DNA of 64,000 bases from Clostridia bacterium (GTDB lineage: Bacteria > Bacillota > Clostridia > UMGS1883 > UMGS1540), in NCBI GenBank assembly GCA_017450025.1, contig JAFSYJ010000002.1, positions 1-64,000 on the forward strand, in the 5' to 3' direction. The notes under the pieces were generated by a model. That model ran no database searches. It was not told the origin of the DNA and saw nothing but the letters and a program-made list of their open reading frames with translations. The translations under genes were made by a program, and so were the position numbers. Every line of letters begins with the position of its first letter. Position 1 is the first letter of the stretch. Shown here piece by piece: positions 48,917-56,874 of the stretch.

Positions 48917-50284
48917 TTATTTGACATCTATAAGCGTTACGCCGAGGTCTTTCTCAACATAAAATCTATATTCCAGTTCCTGTATCGGGAGTTCCTCCCA
49001 GCCTCTCTTATATTCAAACTTTACGGTTGCATTACCGGGCTTAATACCTTTGACGCGCATTTTATAAACTCCGCCTGCACCCGGCATAACTTTATTCGGA
49101 TCAGTATAATGCTCGAGTTCTATATCAAGTTTGTCACTACCCTGCGTCAAACTCCACTCATATCCCGTTGTGCGATTTTCTTCTATTTCGTACTCAAGCT
49201 CAGGCCGATCGTAATCTCTGAGGTCAACATTTATATATTCAGAATCATAGTAAATATCGGCTGTCAGGTAACCTTCGGCATACGACGCTATCTGATACGG
49301 AACATAAAATACATGAACAGCGTTGTCTGTCAAATAATATCCCGCATTGTCAATATCCTCAAGTGCCGCGTCATGAACGCTTTTTGCGTGTTCCTCGTCG
49401 GAATATTCCAAAACCTTTTCTTCAATTCGCTCTGCAACCGCATTGTCAAGGTCAAAGGTTTCCTCATTGAAAAGATCGCGCAGATAAAGCTCTTTATTTT
49501 CTCTTAAATCAAATACTCTGCCCGCCATTGTTGAATTCGGATGTGCTCCGCCCGTGTATGAGGAATAATAAGACAGTATCGAAAGATACCCGTTTCTGTC
49601 AAGCGTAACCTCATAATCCAAATCAAAGGTATACGCCATCTTAAATTCTTCGTATACTTCATCGCTTTTAAGATAATCGTTATAAAAGGCAATCGCGTTT
49701 TCAACAACAGCTTCCGCTTCGTTTTTGTATTCTTCGTTTATTTTATCTATAAATTCATTTCCGTCTGATTCTATTTCGGGATAAGTGGCGTAAACCTCCA
49801 AGTCTACATTGCCCTCATCCTTGTATGAAATCTCGCGGCGTTCAATTTTATGCGCGCCCTGCCTGCTTTCTATAATAACGGCTCTGTCGCTTTCTATCCA
49901 TTCAACTACGGTATCCAATGCCTCCGAAACAGCGCGCAGCGGAACAAGCGTTCTGCTGTTTACGATTTTTGCAGGGACATCTATTGTTACTGCATCGCCG
50001 TCAATATACATCTCATCAGAACCAATCTCAAAGAAAACCGATTTTAACCCTCTGGAAGCATAAACCGTCTTTGATTCACCGTAATCATAATAATTAACTC
50101 TGCTTCCGAGCACTTCAAAAATTGCCCTCATAGGCACAAGTGTTCTGTCGTTTTCAATTATGGGCGGCTGGTCAAACTCAACTTTGTTGCCGTCAACCAA
50201 AACGGTTATGTCATTTTCCGCAAACACACTTACGCAAGGTACCAAAAGGCACAGCACAAGCAATACGCCAATAATCTTTTTCAT
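48917..50284 (-). CDS. Secreted stalk-DUF4163-DUF3298 protein with C-terminal chagasin-like inhibitor domain
   Basis: 455 residues in four parts: signal peptide (MKKIIGVLLVLCLLVPCVSVFA); two copper-amine-oxidase-N-like stalk units at about 25-140 (PPIIENDRTLVPMRAIFEVL and PAKIVNSRTLVPLRAVSEAL); a DUF4163/DUF3298 pair at about 155-365 (YYSSYTGGAHPNS, LYLRDLFNEE); and a C-terminal domain with all three chagasin loops, NRTTGYEW, GAGG and KRGWE. Chagasins (I42) inhibit C1 cysteine peptidases. The start at 50284 lies seven bases after GGAGG; the ATG at 50290 is too near. Predicted to sit on the cell wall. Confidence 0.8.
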   Translation of the reverse strand: MKKIIGVLLVLCLLVPCVSVFAENDITVLVDGNKVEFDQPPIIENDRTLVPMRAIFEVLGSRVNYYDYGESKTVYASRGLKSVFFEIGSDEMYIDGDAVTIDVPAKIVNSRTLVPLRAVSEALDTVVEWIESDRAVIIESRQGAHKIERREISYKDEGNVDLEVYATYPEIESDGNEFIDKINEEYKNEAEAVVENAIAFYNDYLKSDEVYEEFKMAYTFDLDYEVTLDRNGYLSILSYYSSYTGGAHPNSTMAGRVFDLRENKELYLRDLFNEETFDLDNAVAERIEEKVLEYSDEEHAKSVHDAALEDIDNAGYYLTDNAVHVFYVPYQIASYAEGYLTADIYYDSEYINVDLRDYDRPELEYEIEENRTTGYEWSLTQGSDKLDIELEHYTDPNKVMPGAGGVYKMRVKGIKPGNATVKFEYKRGWEELPIQELEYRFYVEKDLGVTLIDVK

Positions 50285-50313
50285 TTTCATACCTCCATCT
50301 TCTTTATATAAAA

Positions 50314-50342
50314 ATTGTATCATACTTTTGTCAGATACACAA
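50314..50342 (-). promoter_or_regulatory. Promoter of the stalk/chagasin gene
   Basis: Reverse-strand TTGTGT, 17 bp, TACAAT. Confidence 0.6.
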
Positions 50343-50364
50343 TAAAAAATTTTTAAAAAAAGTG

Positions 50365-50393
50365 TTGACAACGCAATTTATTTCTGTTATAAT
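50365..50393 (+). promoter_or_regulatory. Promoter of metY
   Basis: TTGACA, 17 bp, TATAAT, a consensus sigma-A promoter 54 bases before the start codon. Confidence 0.9.
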
Positions 50394-53057: not shown

Positions 53058-53088
53058 GAAAAAAGGGGCACAGCTTAAACTGTGCCCC
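53058..53088 (-). terminator. Terminator of dockerin/cohesin operon
   Basis: GGGGCACAG-TTTAAG-CTGTGCCCC on the reverse strand followed by TTTTTT. Confidence 0.93.
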
Positions 53089-53101: not shown

Positions 53102-55141
53102 TTATTTACCAGGTGTAATAGTTACAGCCTTTGTAGCATCATTCCACTCAACATTAGCATTGAGGGCTTCAGCAATAAATCTCATAGGTGTGTAAGTTCT
53201 GTCGTTTTCGATGAATGCAGGAGAATCAAGTGCAACCTCTTCACCGTTAACAAGAGCCTTATCGGAATCAATTGTGATAACGATTGTTACAGCACCCTTT
53301 GTGATTGTAACTGTCTTAGCTTCGCCGTCCCAAGCAACTGTTGCGCCGAGGTTTTCAGCTACCAAACGAGCGGGGAGCATTGTTCTGTCTTTAACGATCT
53401 TCGGAGCAACATCGTTTGTGATTGTTTCACCAAATACGCCAACTTCTTTCTCACCGATTGTGAGGATTATGCTCTCCTTCGGATAGCTCTTGGAAGGCTT
53501 GTTTTCTTCGTTGTTGTTATTGTTTTCTTCGTTATTGTTATTGTTTTCTTCGTTATTGTTGTTTGTTGCTTCACCGGTGTTGTTATTATTTGTGTTGTTC
53601 TTTCCGGGAACAAGAGAAGGACCTGTGCTACCGCCGCTTGTACCACCTGATTTCTTTAGCTCTATAGCTTCTGTTGTTTCAGAAACAGATGTACCGTCTG
53701 TAACATTTGCAGCGGTAATGACAACTTTAACATTCTTGCCAGCCATAGCAGAAGTTGTTGCAACCTTAACTACGCTATTTTTAGCATCTACTGTTATTGC
53801 ATCTGCGTTAATATAGTCGTCTTTTGTAGGTTCTTTACCTTCTTCATAATAGTAAGCTTCTGCTGTTACCTCAAGTTCTGCAGATTCATCAGTAATAGCA
53901 GCATCATACTTAACCTCAATATTCTTTCCAGCTGTTACAGTCTTAGAATAATCTTTGTCAAGAGTAAGAGTTGGAACAGCAGGCTCAATTACTTTTATCT
54001 CTACGGCGTCTGTTTTATTTCCTTCATCATCCTCATTATTTTTAGCTGTGATTATAACAGAAACTTTCTTGCCAACCATATCATTTGTTGTAGAAATGGT
54101 AACTGTGCTGTTTGCATTATCTACTACAACATCTTCAGCAGGAATATCTGTGATTTGTGGATCTTCTCCTTCAACCTCAGTAATTAATTGTGCTGCAGCT
54201 TCTGTTTTGCTTGCGATACCGTTTTTATCATCATATGTGAAAGAAATTACGATGTCACGACCTGCTACTGATTCTTCATCGACTGTATCGAGAGTAACTG
54301 TAGGTTTGTAATTGTCATCATCGTTTTTAACAATAGTGATTGTATCTGTGCCTGTGCCTGTAGCTGTATCATCATCAACGCCATCGCCTGTAACTGTAGC
54401 TGTTATTGTAAGAGTAATCTCTGCATTGCGGTCTTCCTTTTTGGGTGTGTAGGTTGCTTCTGTTCCGAGAACAACCTTTTCTTCATTAACAACCTTTGAC
54501 CACTCGTATGCAATTGTCGGTGTAAGACTCCAAGAATCAACTACTTTAGAAGTACCTTCATCTTCAGTAACTTCACCGGAAAGCTCGGTACCAACTTTAC
54601 CCGAACCTGTGATTACAGCTGTAACTGTGGGAGCTGTGTGAGCAGCTTGGATAGTAACTTTAGCTGAACCAAAGGATATGTTAGAGTTATCAACCGGCAA
54701 ATATCCATCGTCCAAGAAACCGTTCATATTTGCACCTGTTGTTATGTTTGTTTCTTCATTTGTACCTTCGATAGTTGATTTTGCTGTAAATGTTATTGTA
54801 ATAAACGCGCCTGTGTATGCCTTGCCATCAGACAAAACCGTAACATCAACAACGCCTGTTGTTGTGGTATCAACAGAAACTTCAGCGTCTGTTACGCCGT
54901 TAGAAGCAGTTAAAGTATAGTCTTTGTATGTGAGTGCTGCTGACTCATAGTTTAAAGCAAAACCTATACCATGGCAGGAAGGAGCTTCTATGCTAATAGC
55001 AACATCAACATCGCCACCGGGTGCTACGGTTGCATTAGCAGCTGATACTGCATATGTTGCCTCAGCACTTACCGATACTGTCAGTAAAGAAAATATCATA
55101 GCTACTGACAAAATAATTGATAAAATTTTTACTTTTTTCAT
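53102..55141 (-). CDS. Secreted cohesin-Ig-like-stalk domain surface protein
   Basis: 679 residues. Signal peptide (MKKVKILSIILSVAMIFSLLTVSVSA); a cohesin-like domain at about 28-165 (VAPGGDVDVAISIEAPSCHG, ALNYESAALTYKDY, GAFITITFTAKSTIEG); an Ig-like domain at about 170-275; two related beta repeats at about 280-500, each ending in GK(K/N)V(S/K)VIITA; an Asn/Glu-rich linker; and two copper-amine-oxidase-N-like stalk units at about 555-679 (PKIVKDRTMLPARLVAENLG, PAFIENDRTYTPMRFIAEALN). The stalk units suggest wall attachment. It is second in an operon, 20 bases after the dockerin-like gene, so the two are probable partners. Confidence 0.75.
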   Translation of the reverse strand: MKKVKILSIILSVAMIFSLLTVSVSAEATYAVSAANATVAPGGDVDVAISIEAPSCHGIGFALNYESAALTYKDYTLTASNGVTDAEVSVDTTTTGVVDVTVLSDGKAYTGAFITITFTAKSTIEGTNEETNITTGANMNGFLDDGYLPVDNSNISFGSAKVTIQAAHTAPTVTAVITGSGKVGTELSGEVTEDEGTSKVVDSWSLTPTIAYEWSKVVNEEKVVLGTEATYTPKKEDRNAEITLTITATVTGDGVDDDTATGTGTDTITIVKNDDDNYKPTVTLDTVDEESVAGRDIVISFTYDDKNGIASKTEAAAQLITEVEGEDPQITDIPAEDVVVDNANSTVTISTTNDMVGKKVSVIITAKNNEDDEGNKTDAVEIKVIEPAVPTLTLDKDYSKTVTAGKNIEVKYDAAITDESAELEVTAEAYYYEEGKEPTKDDYINADAITVDAKNSVVKVATTSAMAGKNVKVVITAANVTDGTSVSETTEAIELKKSGGTSGGSTGPSLVPGKNNTNNNNTGEATNNNNEENNNNNEENNNNNEENKPSKSYPKESIILTIGEKEVGVFGETITNDVAPKIVKDRTMLPARLVAENLGATVAWDGEAKTVTITKGAVTIVITIDSDKALVNGEEVALDSPAFIENDRTYTPMRFIAEALNANVEWNDATKAVTITPGK
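53500..53562. repeat. Tandem 21 bp repeat (x3) coding an Asn/Glu linker
   Basis: Three near-perfect copies of a 21-base unit (TGTTTTCTTCGTTATTGTTAT type) lie in frame in the cohesin gene and encode a heptad of two Glu and five Asn. Copy number could vary by slippage without changing frame. Confidence 0.9.
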
Positions 55142-55161
55142 TTTTACTCTCCTTTTTTAAT

Positions 55162-56718
55162 TTAATCTTTGATTATGGCAAGTTTAGGATCTTTTTTGAG
55201 AACTACTCTCTTTAAAGCTCCAAAGTCGGGTGATGTTACTTGACCGTCGTGCTTGCCGCCGCCAACATCACTTGCGAGAAGCTGTTTATCTTTCGGAGCA
55301 GTTTCTTTATTAAGAACTATTCTCTTAACAACACCAAAGTCAGGTGATAAAATCGTTTCAATCGTTTCATCAGTGTATGTTAATTGCGTCTTGCCATAAT
55401 ACATTGTATCTGAAGCCTCATCAAGTATTTGTGCTGCACTTGCTACAGCATCTGCATCAGCATAACCGGTTACAATACCTATAAAGTATTCATTCTGCGG
55501 ATTGTAGAAGAGAACAGTACCTCCTAATTTAATTGATTGCGTAGTGTAATCAAGAGTACCCTTTTCAATTGTTACAATTGCGTAGCCGTTGCCCTTGAAT
55601 TTGCTAAACGCATTCTTGTCCGCCGAGACAACGAAATTAACATCATCAGCCGAAATTGCCGTTGCAGTTGCACCCTTTGCAGGAACAAAGAATGTACCCA
55701 AAACCTTGGAAGCATCGCCTGCAGTAGCTATAACCTTAATTGTTTGAGCGTCGCCGCCATTTTCGGCTCTTGCTACCGTAAGAACACTCTCTGCAACATC
55801 TGCTGTTACATCAGTGCCTTCCTCCGCACTTCCTACAAACTTTTGTACGGTTATTACAACATCCTCTGTTGATGCGGGAATGCTGATAGTCCATTCATCC
55901 GCTTCTGCGTCGTTGCTTATCCATGCAGCTGTGCCTTCATAGTTCATAAGCTTTTCACCGTCAGCAGAAATAACCTTAACGGTTTTATCTGCTACATCAA
56001 CATATCCGTCAACATGCGAGAATTTGATTGTGTAGGTTGTAACCTCATCGGGAGCTTCGTTCATAGAGATATTACCCGTTAATGTGCTTATAGAACCTTC
56101 TTCAACCTCATCTTCACCACTATTGGGAACAACAGTAATGGTTACGCCGTCGAGCCATGCCTGAGGTACATCAGTAAAGTCAAGAACCTGAGCTCCGTCA
56201 ACATAGTAATCTTTGCCTTCTTCAAGTGCTGCCATCGGAACTGTTACGGATTCAGCAGGAGTTGACTTTGTCAGTTCAGCGCATTGAAATGCCTCAGCTT
56301 CTGATCCGCCCATAAAGACTAATATGTAGTCACCCGTTGCATCTGTTTCGCGAAGGATTATTTGGGCCCATTCTGCTGTACATTCAACAATTTCTCCGTT
56401 TTGTTCTCTGTTATCAGCTTTCTGGTCAACAAACAAAATAATGTCATCGTTTCCTGATAATTCAGGAATTTGGTTATTTAATTCCGCAAGACTTTTGTCT
56501 GACCTAACAACCAAAAGAGTTATATCGCCAGAATCTTTAAGGCTGCCACCCCCGGCGAGGGTACCCTTAACATGTATAGCAGATTCAGTATCAGCAACGA
56601 ATTCAACTGTGTCCAAAGAAACGGTAGAAGCAGCAAAAGCTACCATCGGAACAAATGTTGCCGCCATAGCCAATACAGATAACAGTGCTATAACTTTTTT
56701 AAAGTTTCTGTTTACCAT
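55162..56718 (-). CDS. Secreted protein with C-terminal dockerin-like repeats
   Basis: 518 residues: signal peptide (residues 1-29, ending VAFAAS), an N-terminal beta domain (about 30-165, with DGYILVFMGG-like text), further Ig-like segments, and a C-terminal pair of dockerin-like repeats: a degenerate YTDETIETILSPDFGVVKRIVL and a fuller ASDVGGGKHDGQVTSPDFGALKRVVL. The second has the D..DG.V...D pattern and the LKRxVL helix of type I dockerins, but with extra residues in the calcium loop. No enzyme domain seen. It is the first gene of the operon; a cohesin-domain protein is encoded next. Confidence 0.7.
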   Translation of the reverse strand: MVNRNFKKVIALLSVLAMAATFVPMVAFAASTVSLDTVEFVADTESAIHVKGTLAGGGSLKDSGDITLLVVRSDKSLAELNNQIPELSGNDDIILFVDQKADNREQNGEIVECTAEWAQIILRETDATGDYILVFMGGSEAEAFQCAELTKSTPAESVTVPMAALEEGKDYYVDGAQVLDFTDVPQAWLDGVTITVVPNSGEDEVEEGSISTLTGNISMNEAPDEVTTYTIKFSHVDGYVDVADKTVKVISADGEKLMNYEGTAAWISNDAEADEWTISIPASTEDVVITVQKFVGSAEEGTDVTADVAESVLTVARAENGGDAQTIKVIATAGDASKVLGTFFVPAKGATATAISADDVNFVVSADKNAFSKFKGNGYAIVTIEKGTLDYTTQSIKLGGTVLFYNPQNEYFIGIVTGYADADAVASAAQILDEASDTMYYGKTQLTYTDETIETILSPDFGVVKRIVLNKETAPKDKQLLASDVGGGKHDGQVTSPDFGALKRVVLKKDPKLAIIKD

Positions 56719-56845: not shown

Positions 56846-56874
56846 ATTATAATATCTTTTCGTATTTTTTGCAA
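56846..56874 (-). promoter_or_regulatory. Promoter of dockerin/cohesin operon
   Basis: Reverse-strand TTGCAA, 17 bp, TATAAT. Confidence 0.8.

Follow-up and report, generated by a model that had tools for sequence, protein, structure and literature searches.

A putative enzyme-free cohesin-dockerin surface unit encoded by two adjacent genes of a Clostridia bacterium

The question posed by the locus

What use could a bacterium have for a cohesin and a dockerin encoded side by side with no enzyme in sight? Coupling of these modules has been described mainly as what holds enzyme complexes together, and the question is posed by two adjacent minus-strand genes, 20 bp apart, in the 64,000 nucleotides analysed here (the window), the start of contig JAFSYJ010000002.1 of assembly GCA_017450025.1 (the genome, 87.5% complete, is termed G000 below). 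The upstream gene (gene A) encodes P1 and the downstream one (gene B) encodes P2. A preliminary description made from the DNA letters took the products for a wall-attached receptor and its cargo; with a probability of roughly 0.7 the operon is likewise read here as a minimal cohesin-dockerin surface unit, free of enzymes, in which P1 would dock on wall-held P2. What carries this reading is the layout of the genes, their secretion signals as recognised by eye, the domains, the absence of a recognisable enzyme domain from either protein, conservation of the operon, co-distribution of the two modules and recurrence of the pair in other genomes. For conservation the key relative is G003, the metagenome-assembled genome Clostridia bacterium RGIG8016 from water-buffalo rumen, which belongs to the same family as the window and to another genus. 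The features, all on the minus strand, are as follows.

55162-56718, minus: P1 (gene A), open reading frame (ORF) of 518 amino acids, from the ORF list
56632-56718, minus: P1 signal peptide (residues 1-29), recognised by eye in the sequence and kept in orthologues
56269-56631, minus: P1 'YIDQ' beta-domain (residues 30-150), unclassified, from profile search
55390-55683, minus: P1 X-module (residues 346-443), from the G003 copies, BLASTP to a third genome (G236) and AlphaFold2 (AF2)
55189-55401, minus: P1 degenerate dockerin-like pair (about residues 440-510), from loop alignment, with PF00404 below its cut-off
53102-55141, minus: P2 (gene B), ORF of 679 amino acids, from the ORF list
54644-55063, minus: P2 cohesin domain (residues 27-166), from PF00963, PDB profile matches and the AF2 model
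53603-54643, minus: P2 beta-rich stem, probably Ig-like, with the same layout in the G003 orthologue
53489-53599, minus: P2 Asn/Glu-rich linker (residues 515-551), from the sequence
53105-53485, minus: P2 tandem PF07833 (copper amine oxidase N) wall-binding stalk, from Pfam
56846-56874, minus: candidate sigma-70-like promoter, TTGCAA-17-TATAAT, 10/12 match to consensus
53065-53088, minus: intrinsic terminator, 10-bp stem (GGGGCACAG...) with a TTTTTT tail

A cohesin on a wall-binding stalk

By profile and by predicted fold, the N-terminal domain of P2 is a true cohesin. PF00963 scored 30.4 bits on it in a genome-wide profile search, over the curated cut-off of 24.1; a profile of this domain and four G003 cohesins brought up cohesins first in a search of the PDB (best 5nrk, E 1.7e-6); and for the AF2 model, made from five input sequences with a predicted local distance difference test score (pLDDT) of 83, the top 25 Foldseek matches in the PDB were cohesins or cohesin complexes (E 2.8e-8, TMq up to 0.67), the OlpC cohesin 4dh2 being among the fold matches. 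The cohesin was not listed by hmmscan with Pfam on full-length P2 or on its N-terminus. Cohesins of P2-like surface proteins may for their part escape routine annotation, since Pfam hmmscan overlooked the one in P2.

At the other end of the protein PF07833 is matched by two units (169 bits, E 3.3e-50), preceded by the Asn/Glu linker; the stem between linker and cohesin has no confident Pfam family. The cohesin-like opening, the linker and the paired stalk units of the preliminary description are all borne out by these searches and the fold prediction. Elsewhere in G000, contigs C2 (50-463, L049) and C9 (169-567, L050) start inside stalk proteins 57-60% identical to the PF07833 part of P2, and, given two contigs opening in this manner, the assembly may break at repeated surface genes.

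An altered dockerin at the end of P1

P1 runs from a signal peptide through the YIDQ beta-domain (so named here after a motif, and used as a search profile) and a beta-rich middle to a C-terminal X-dockerin. In Pfam it has no family match at E<=0.1, and neither Pfam nor NCBIfam gives an enzyme match; neither P1 nor P2 has a recognisable enzyme domain, in keeping with the original remark that no glycoside hydrolase is visible in them. The X-module, of about 100 residues, directly precedes the dockerin repeats, and the dyad has 28 invariant columns among seven aligned sequences. Its core is modelled by AF2 with pLDDT 78-90 and has no Foldseek match below E 0.001 against the PDB, and in a PDB profile search with the X-dockerin the X-module matched no PDB X-module and dockerin matches were marginal (E 0.04).

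Is the end of P1 a dockerin at all? The answer comes through relatives. A direct BLASTP match links P1 to genome G236 (35% identity over 125 residues of X-module and dockerin, E 7e-10), whose dockerin passes PF00404 with 36.5 bits, and a profile of the window and G003 modules finds G236, a member of another family, at E 7e-18. In further Clostridia genomes the dockerin half is matched more weakly, in one case on a GH5-like protein. In the opposite direction, when the window's family is left out of a dockerin profile, that profile recovers the orthologue in G003 (E 4e-6). On sequence grounds we regard the C-terminus of P1 as homologous to dockerins and probably functioning as one, and not as canonical type I. 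Of the dockerin-like repeats first described, homology thus stands by way of G236, and conformity to the family standard does not. As for further proteins with the SPDFGxxKRxVL-type repeat seen there, no second occurrence of the repeat or of the module was found in the 87.5% of G000 available, and G003 supplied seven further copies of the module.

A pair that recurs across the Clostridia

Would such an arrangement be peculiar to one genome? The locus was generalized as gene A, with a signal peptide, YIDQ domain and dockerin, followed directly downstream by gene B, with a cohesin and often SLH repeats. The YIDQ profile has matches in 44 of 391 genomes of the class, and when built without the window's family it still finds P1 (E 8e-6) and its G003 orthologue (E 2.6e-13); the domain had no convincing match in profile searches of Pfam and the PDB. 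Among 399 genomes drawn from the phylum, in which the class genomes were YIDQ-free ones, the window's own genome alone matched at E <= 1e-4, limited evidence that the domain is rare outside the class.

Where gene A ends in a dockerin the next gene is of cohesin type in 22 of 29 cases, against 1 of 14 where it does not (Fisher p 3e-5; loci with room downstream). The pair was found in 22 genomes from families f1, f3, f18, f19 and f88 (G003 counted, the window's own genome not) with cohesin profiles built in part from gene B members and a sample biased towards seed-like loci; 15 of the 22 were neither seeds of the YIDQ profile nor close relatives of a seed locus, and two, in G340 and G432, are marginal. 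Gaps between the genes range from 11 to 319 bp. In G236 and G340 the gene after the P1 homologue, 24 and 35 bp on, codes for a secreted protein that carries cohesin-like domains, and the amidohydrolase gene upstream of the G236 pair is shared with G003 (49% identity).

The first domains of gene B products from two independent groups match PDB cohesins (4ums, E 6e-7; 3l8q, E 3e-5), and seven gene B proteins outside the profiles also score as cohesin. Among gene A proteins, 18 of 26 match Dockerin_1. Of 23 gene B proteins, eight match SLH and two, those of the window and G003, PF07833. Profile-profile comparison of the P2 cohesins with one gene B group gave no match, though that group matches type II cohesins in the PDB, which implies that the cohesins are diverse. 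By these sequence comparisons the window's pair is one instance of a wider family and not a local oddity.

Co-distribution of the two modules

In G003 the orthologues of P1 and P2 adjoin each other, each 36% identical to its counterpart and that of P2 full-length, near the same DUF4093 and hibernation-factor genes as in the window. That genome holds seven further copies of the X-dockerin module (one reduced to its dockerin end), kept as one unit on differing carrier proteins, a LamG-like protein bearing two of them, together with two P1 paralogues, both broken by contig ends. It also encodes a protein of adaptor-like layout, in which two or more cohesins are combined with an X-dockerin, one cohesin protein with SLH repeats and two with BspA-type leucine-rich repeats (LRRs).

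Among 28 genomes of the order, X-dockerins occur in two, G000 and G003, and P2-type cohesins (above 100 bits) in the same two, in contrast to canonical dockerins, which are in 18. This shared distribution favours the P2 cohesin and the X-dockerin, as judged from sequence, as a matching pair. A wider GTDB scan for the X-dockerin returned RGIG8016 alone.

As a separate observation, RGIG8016 contigs C34, C18, C30 and C44 (L043, L127, L128, L042) seem to hold a whole scaffold without enzymes, made up of the two-cohesin X-dockerin adaptor, an SLH anchor, and LRR and LamG proteins.

Weighing the readings

Several results weigh against docking of P1 on P2, and most concern the dockerin. On P1 alone PF00404 reaches 19.5 bits (E 0.0012), below its cut-off of 22.9, and a PF00404 scan of G000 lists two other proteins and not P1. 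Set against the canonical 12-residue DxNxDGxxxxxD, neither calcium loop conforms. Structure prediction of the dyad likewise failed to bear the dockerin out, with pLDDT below 40 over the dockerin half and nothing significant from Foldseek. The dockerin profile built without the window's family gives the window's dockerin E 0.004, compared with 0.006 for the best of 400 shuffles; the score being near shuffle level, the claim for the window rests on linkage through relatives. Seven dockerin-bearing gene A loci with room downstream have no profile-detected cohesin neighbour; in G236, one of the seven, the neighbour is cohesin-like by eye. As for the operon itself, promoter-like sites in the region number 15 compared with 10.6 +/- 3.4 in shuffles, hardly an enrichment, and the promoter match is by itself weak. 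Of the operon as originally drawn, then, the two ORFs 20 bases apart and the terminator (53088-53065), a strong sequence match, stand firm, and the promoter does not; the operon is supported by terminator and spacing.

Could the plug be dead? P1 and P2 would then be independent surface proteins, the dockerin having decayed and the operon being a relic of an ancestral pair. Beyond the sub-threshold score, alignment with the G236 and G340 loops points this way, loop 1 being eroded with most calcium ligands lost. However, what has changed has also been kept: a 3-residue insertion between loop positions 4 and 5 of repeat 2, absent from the canonical loop DVDDDGNVNTLD, is common to the window and G003, and the altered module is maintained in two genera, with seven G003 copies and those 28 invariant columns. 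It is, moreover, carried by the adaptor protein that has two cohesins, and such retention is what a working variant would show, not decay. We consider decay unlikely.

Might the P2 cohesin instead serve some other partner, canonical dockerins or enzymes missing from the draft, as the anchor of a small cellulosome or amylosome? The genome does encode two canonical PF00404 proteins, an 87.5% complete assembly leaves room for others, and in 4dh2 the OlpC cohesin is bound to the dockerin of another protein. Nevertheless P2-type cohesins track X-dockerins and not PF00404 dockerins, neither PF00404 protein has an enzyme domain, and P2 shares its operon with P1, all of which make this quite unlikely. 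The two dockerins concerned, at C23 76312-76476 (L003) and C10 20276-20437 (L004), have no obvious cohesin partner; the C23 protein is of the BspA-type LRR kind and that of C10 lacks any other Pfam domain.

That the cohesin fold of P2 binds sugar or protein, with P1 a second adhesin and no plug-and-socket contact, might be prompted by the similar folds of adhesins, the fold search also listing integrins and collagen-binding domains, but with cohesins as 25 of the 25 best structural matches and recurrent adjacency to dockerin genes it is very improbable. None of the rivals explains at once why an altered dockerin is conserved and why the two genes so often lie side by side.

Membership of a cellulosome or amylosome was considered in its own right and rejected, since P1, the two PF00404 proteins of G000 and the Pfam-scanned X-dockerin proteins of G003 all lack an enzyme domain; in G003 homology was the basis for two P1 paralogues, and contig ends truncate several carriers.

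Comparison with known systems and a proposed mechanism

Cohesins, dockerins, X-dockerins, OlpC-type anchors and noncellulosomal cohesin-dockerin pairs are all known already. X-dockerin dyads include type II of CipA/ScaA and type III of Ruminococcus flavefaciens CttA/ScaB. P1 resembles these in having its X-module C-terminal and directly before the dockerin, and in the occurrence of the dyad on a cohesin-bearing adaptor-like protein in G003; it differs in an X-module unmatched in the PDB, the loop 2 insertion, the eroded loop 1 and carriers without a recognised enzyme domain. Outside cellulosomes, cohesin or dockerin proteins are represented by Clostridium perfringens glycosidases and archaeal cohesins. 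In the Limousia mucinolysome, noncellulosomal cohesin-dockerin coupling links glycosidases (PMC12997984). The coupling outside cellulosomes is what P1 and P2 would share with the C. perfringens and Limousia systems, in which glycosidases are linked, whereas here there is a two-gene operon with no recognisable enzyme. With the YIDQ-dockerin and cohesin-anchor pairs of other Clostridia the window shares gene order, the YIDQ domain, a dockerin on gene A and a cohesin on gene B; what sets its own family apart is that gene A is longer, the dockerin degenerate and the anchor PF07833 instead of SLH.

The closest precedents for P2 are OlpC of Clostridium thermocellum and ScaG of Acetivibrio cellulolyticus and Clostridium clariflavum, with a single type I cohesin and PF07833 (PMC3413522), and the PF07833 region of OlpC binds secondary cell-wall polymers according to work of Pinheiro et al. 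as cited in PMC4582956. P2 likewise combines a single cohesin, with a model matching 4dh2, and a PF07833 region; because this precedent is close we infer that P2 is attached to the cell wall in its own organism too. The order is reversed, the cohesin of P2 being N-terminal and its stalk C-terminal whereas in ScaG and OlpC the cohesin follows PF07833 (PMC3413522), and the likely partner of P2, a protein without an enzyme domain, is the product of the adjacent gene, in a genome with no cellulosome.

The mechanism envisaged is as follows. The PF07833 tandem would fix secreted P2 to the wall, as in OlpC, with one cohesin offered at the tip of the beta-rich stem and Asn/Glu linker. P1, also secreted, would dock on it through the C-terminal X-dockerin and so display the YIDQ and middle beta-domains on the cell surface, where they may act as an adhesin, in ligand binding or as a structural layer. 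The receptor-and-cargo model fits the cohesin on a wall-binding domain, the dockerin homologue on P1, the conserved operon and the recurring domain pair.

Since the pair recurs in many Clostridia, a surface assembly in which connectors of the cellulosome type work without enzymes may be common. A bolder proposal, held tentatively and at somewhat less than even odds, is that a small secreted YIDQ-dockerin protein and its wall-anchored cohesin receptor make up a widespread enzyme-free two-gene system of Clostridia for building a dedicated surface assembly, in which the window's lineage has remodelled the X-dockerin loops, perhaps to calcium independence, and which in RGIG8016 has grown into a scaffold free of enzymes that includes adaptor, SLH and LRR proteins. 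In line with the suspicion that the assembly may be undescribed, no account of an enzyme-free two-gene cohesin-dockerin pair was found in the open-licence papers searched. An enzyme-free pair that recurs in five or more families of Clostridia hints that the coupling has an older use, or a parallel one, in the docking of structural or adhesive surface proteins. One-to-one native pairs make the function of noncellulosomal cohesins and dockerins directly testable, protein engineering may gain compact orthogonal pairs from gene A and gene B, and the dockerin with degenerate loops may serve as a probe for how much calcium coordination the interface needs.

Neighbouring genes and other observations

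On its 5' side the operon adjoins a DUF4093/Toprim gene and a ribosome-hibernation gene (PF02482), and on its 3' side a YgjV-like membrane protein gene. Further along the window, 48917-50371 (minus strand) encodes a secreted protein with an unusual mix of PF07833, PdaC/DUF3298 and a chagasin-type peptidase inhibitor (I42). In another genome (G343, contig C3, 896100-896288, L138) a dockerin-like pair opens an ORF of RHS-repeat type, beside a ParE-like ORF with a masked stretch.

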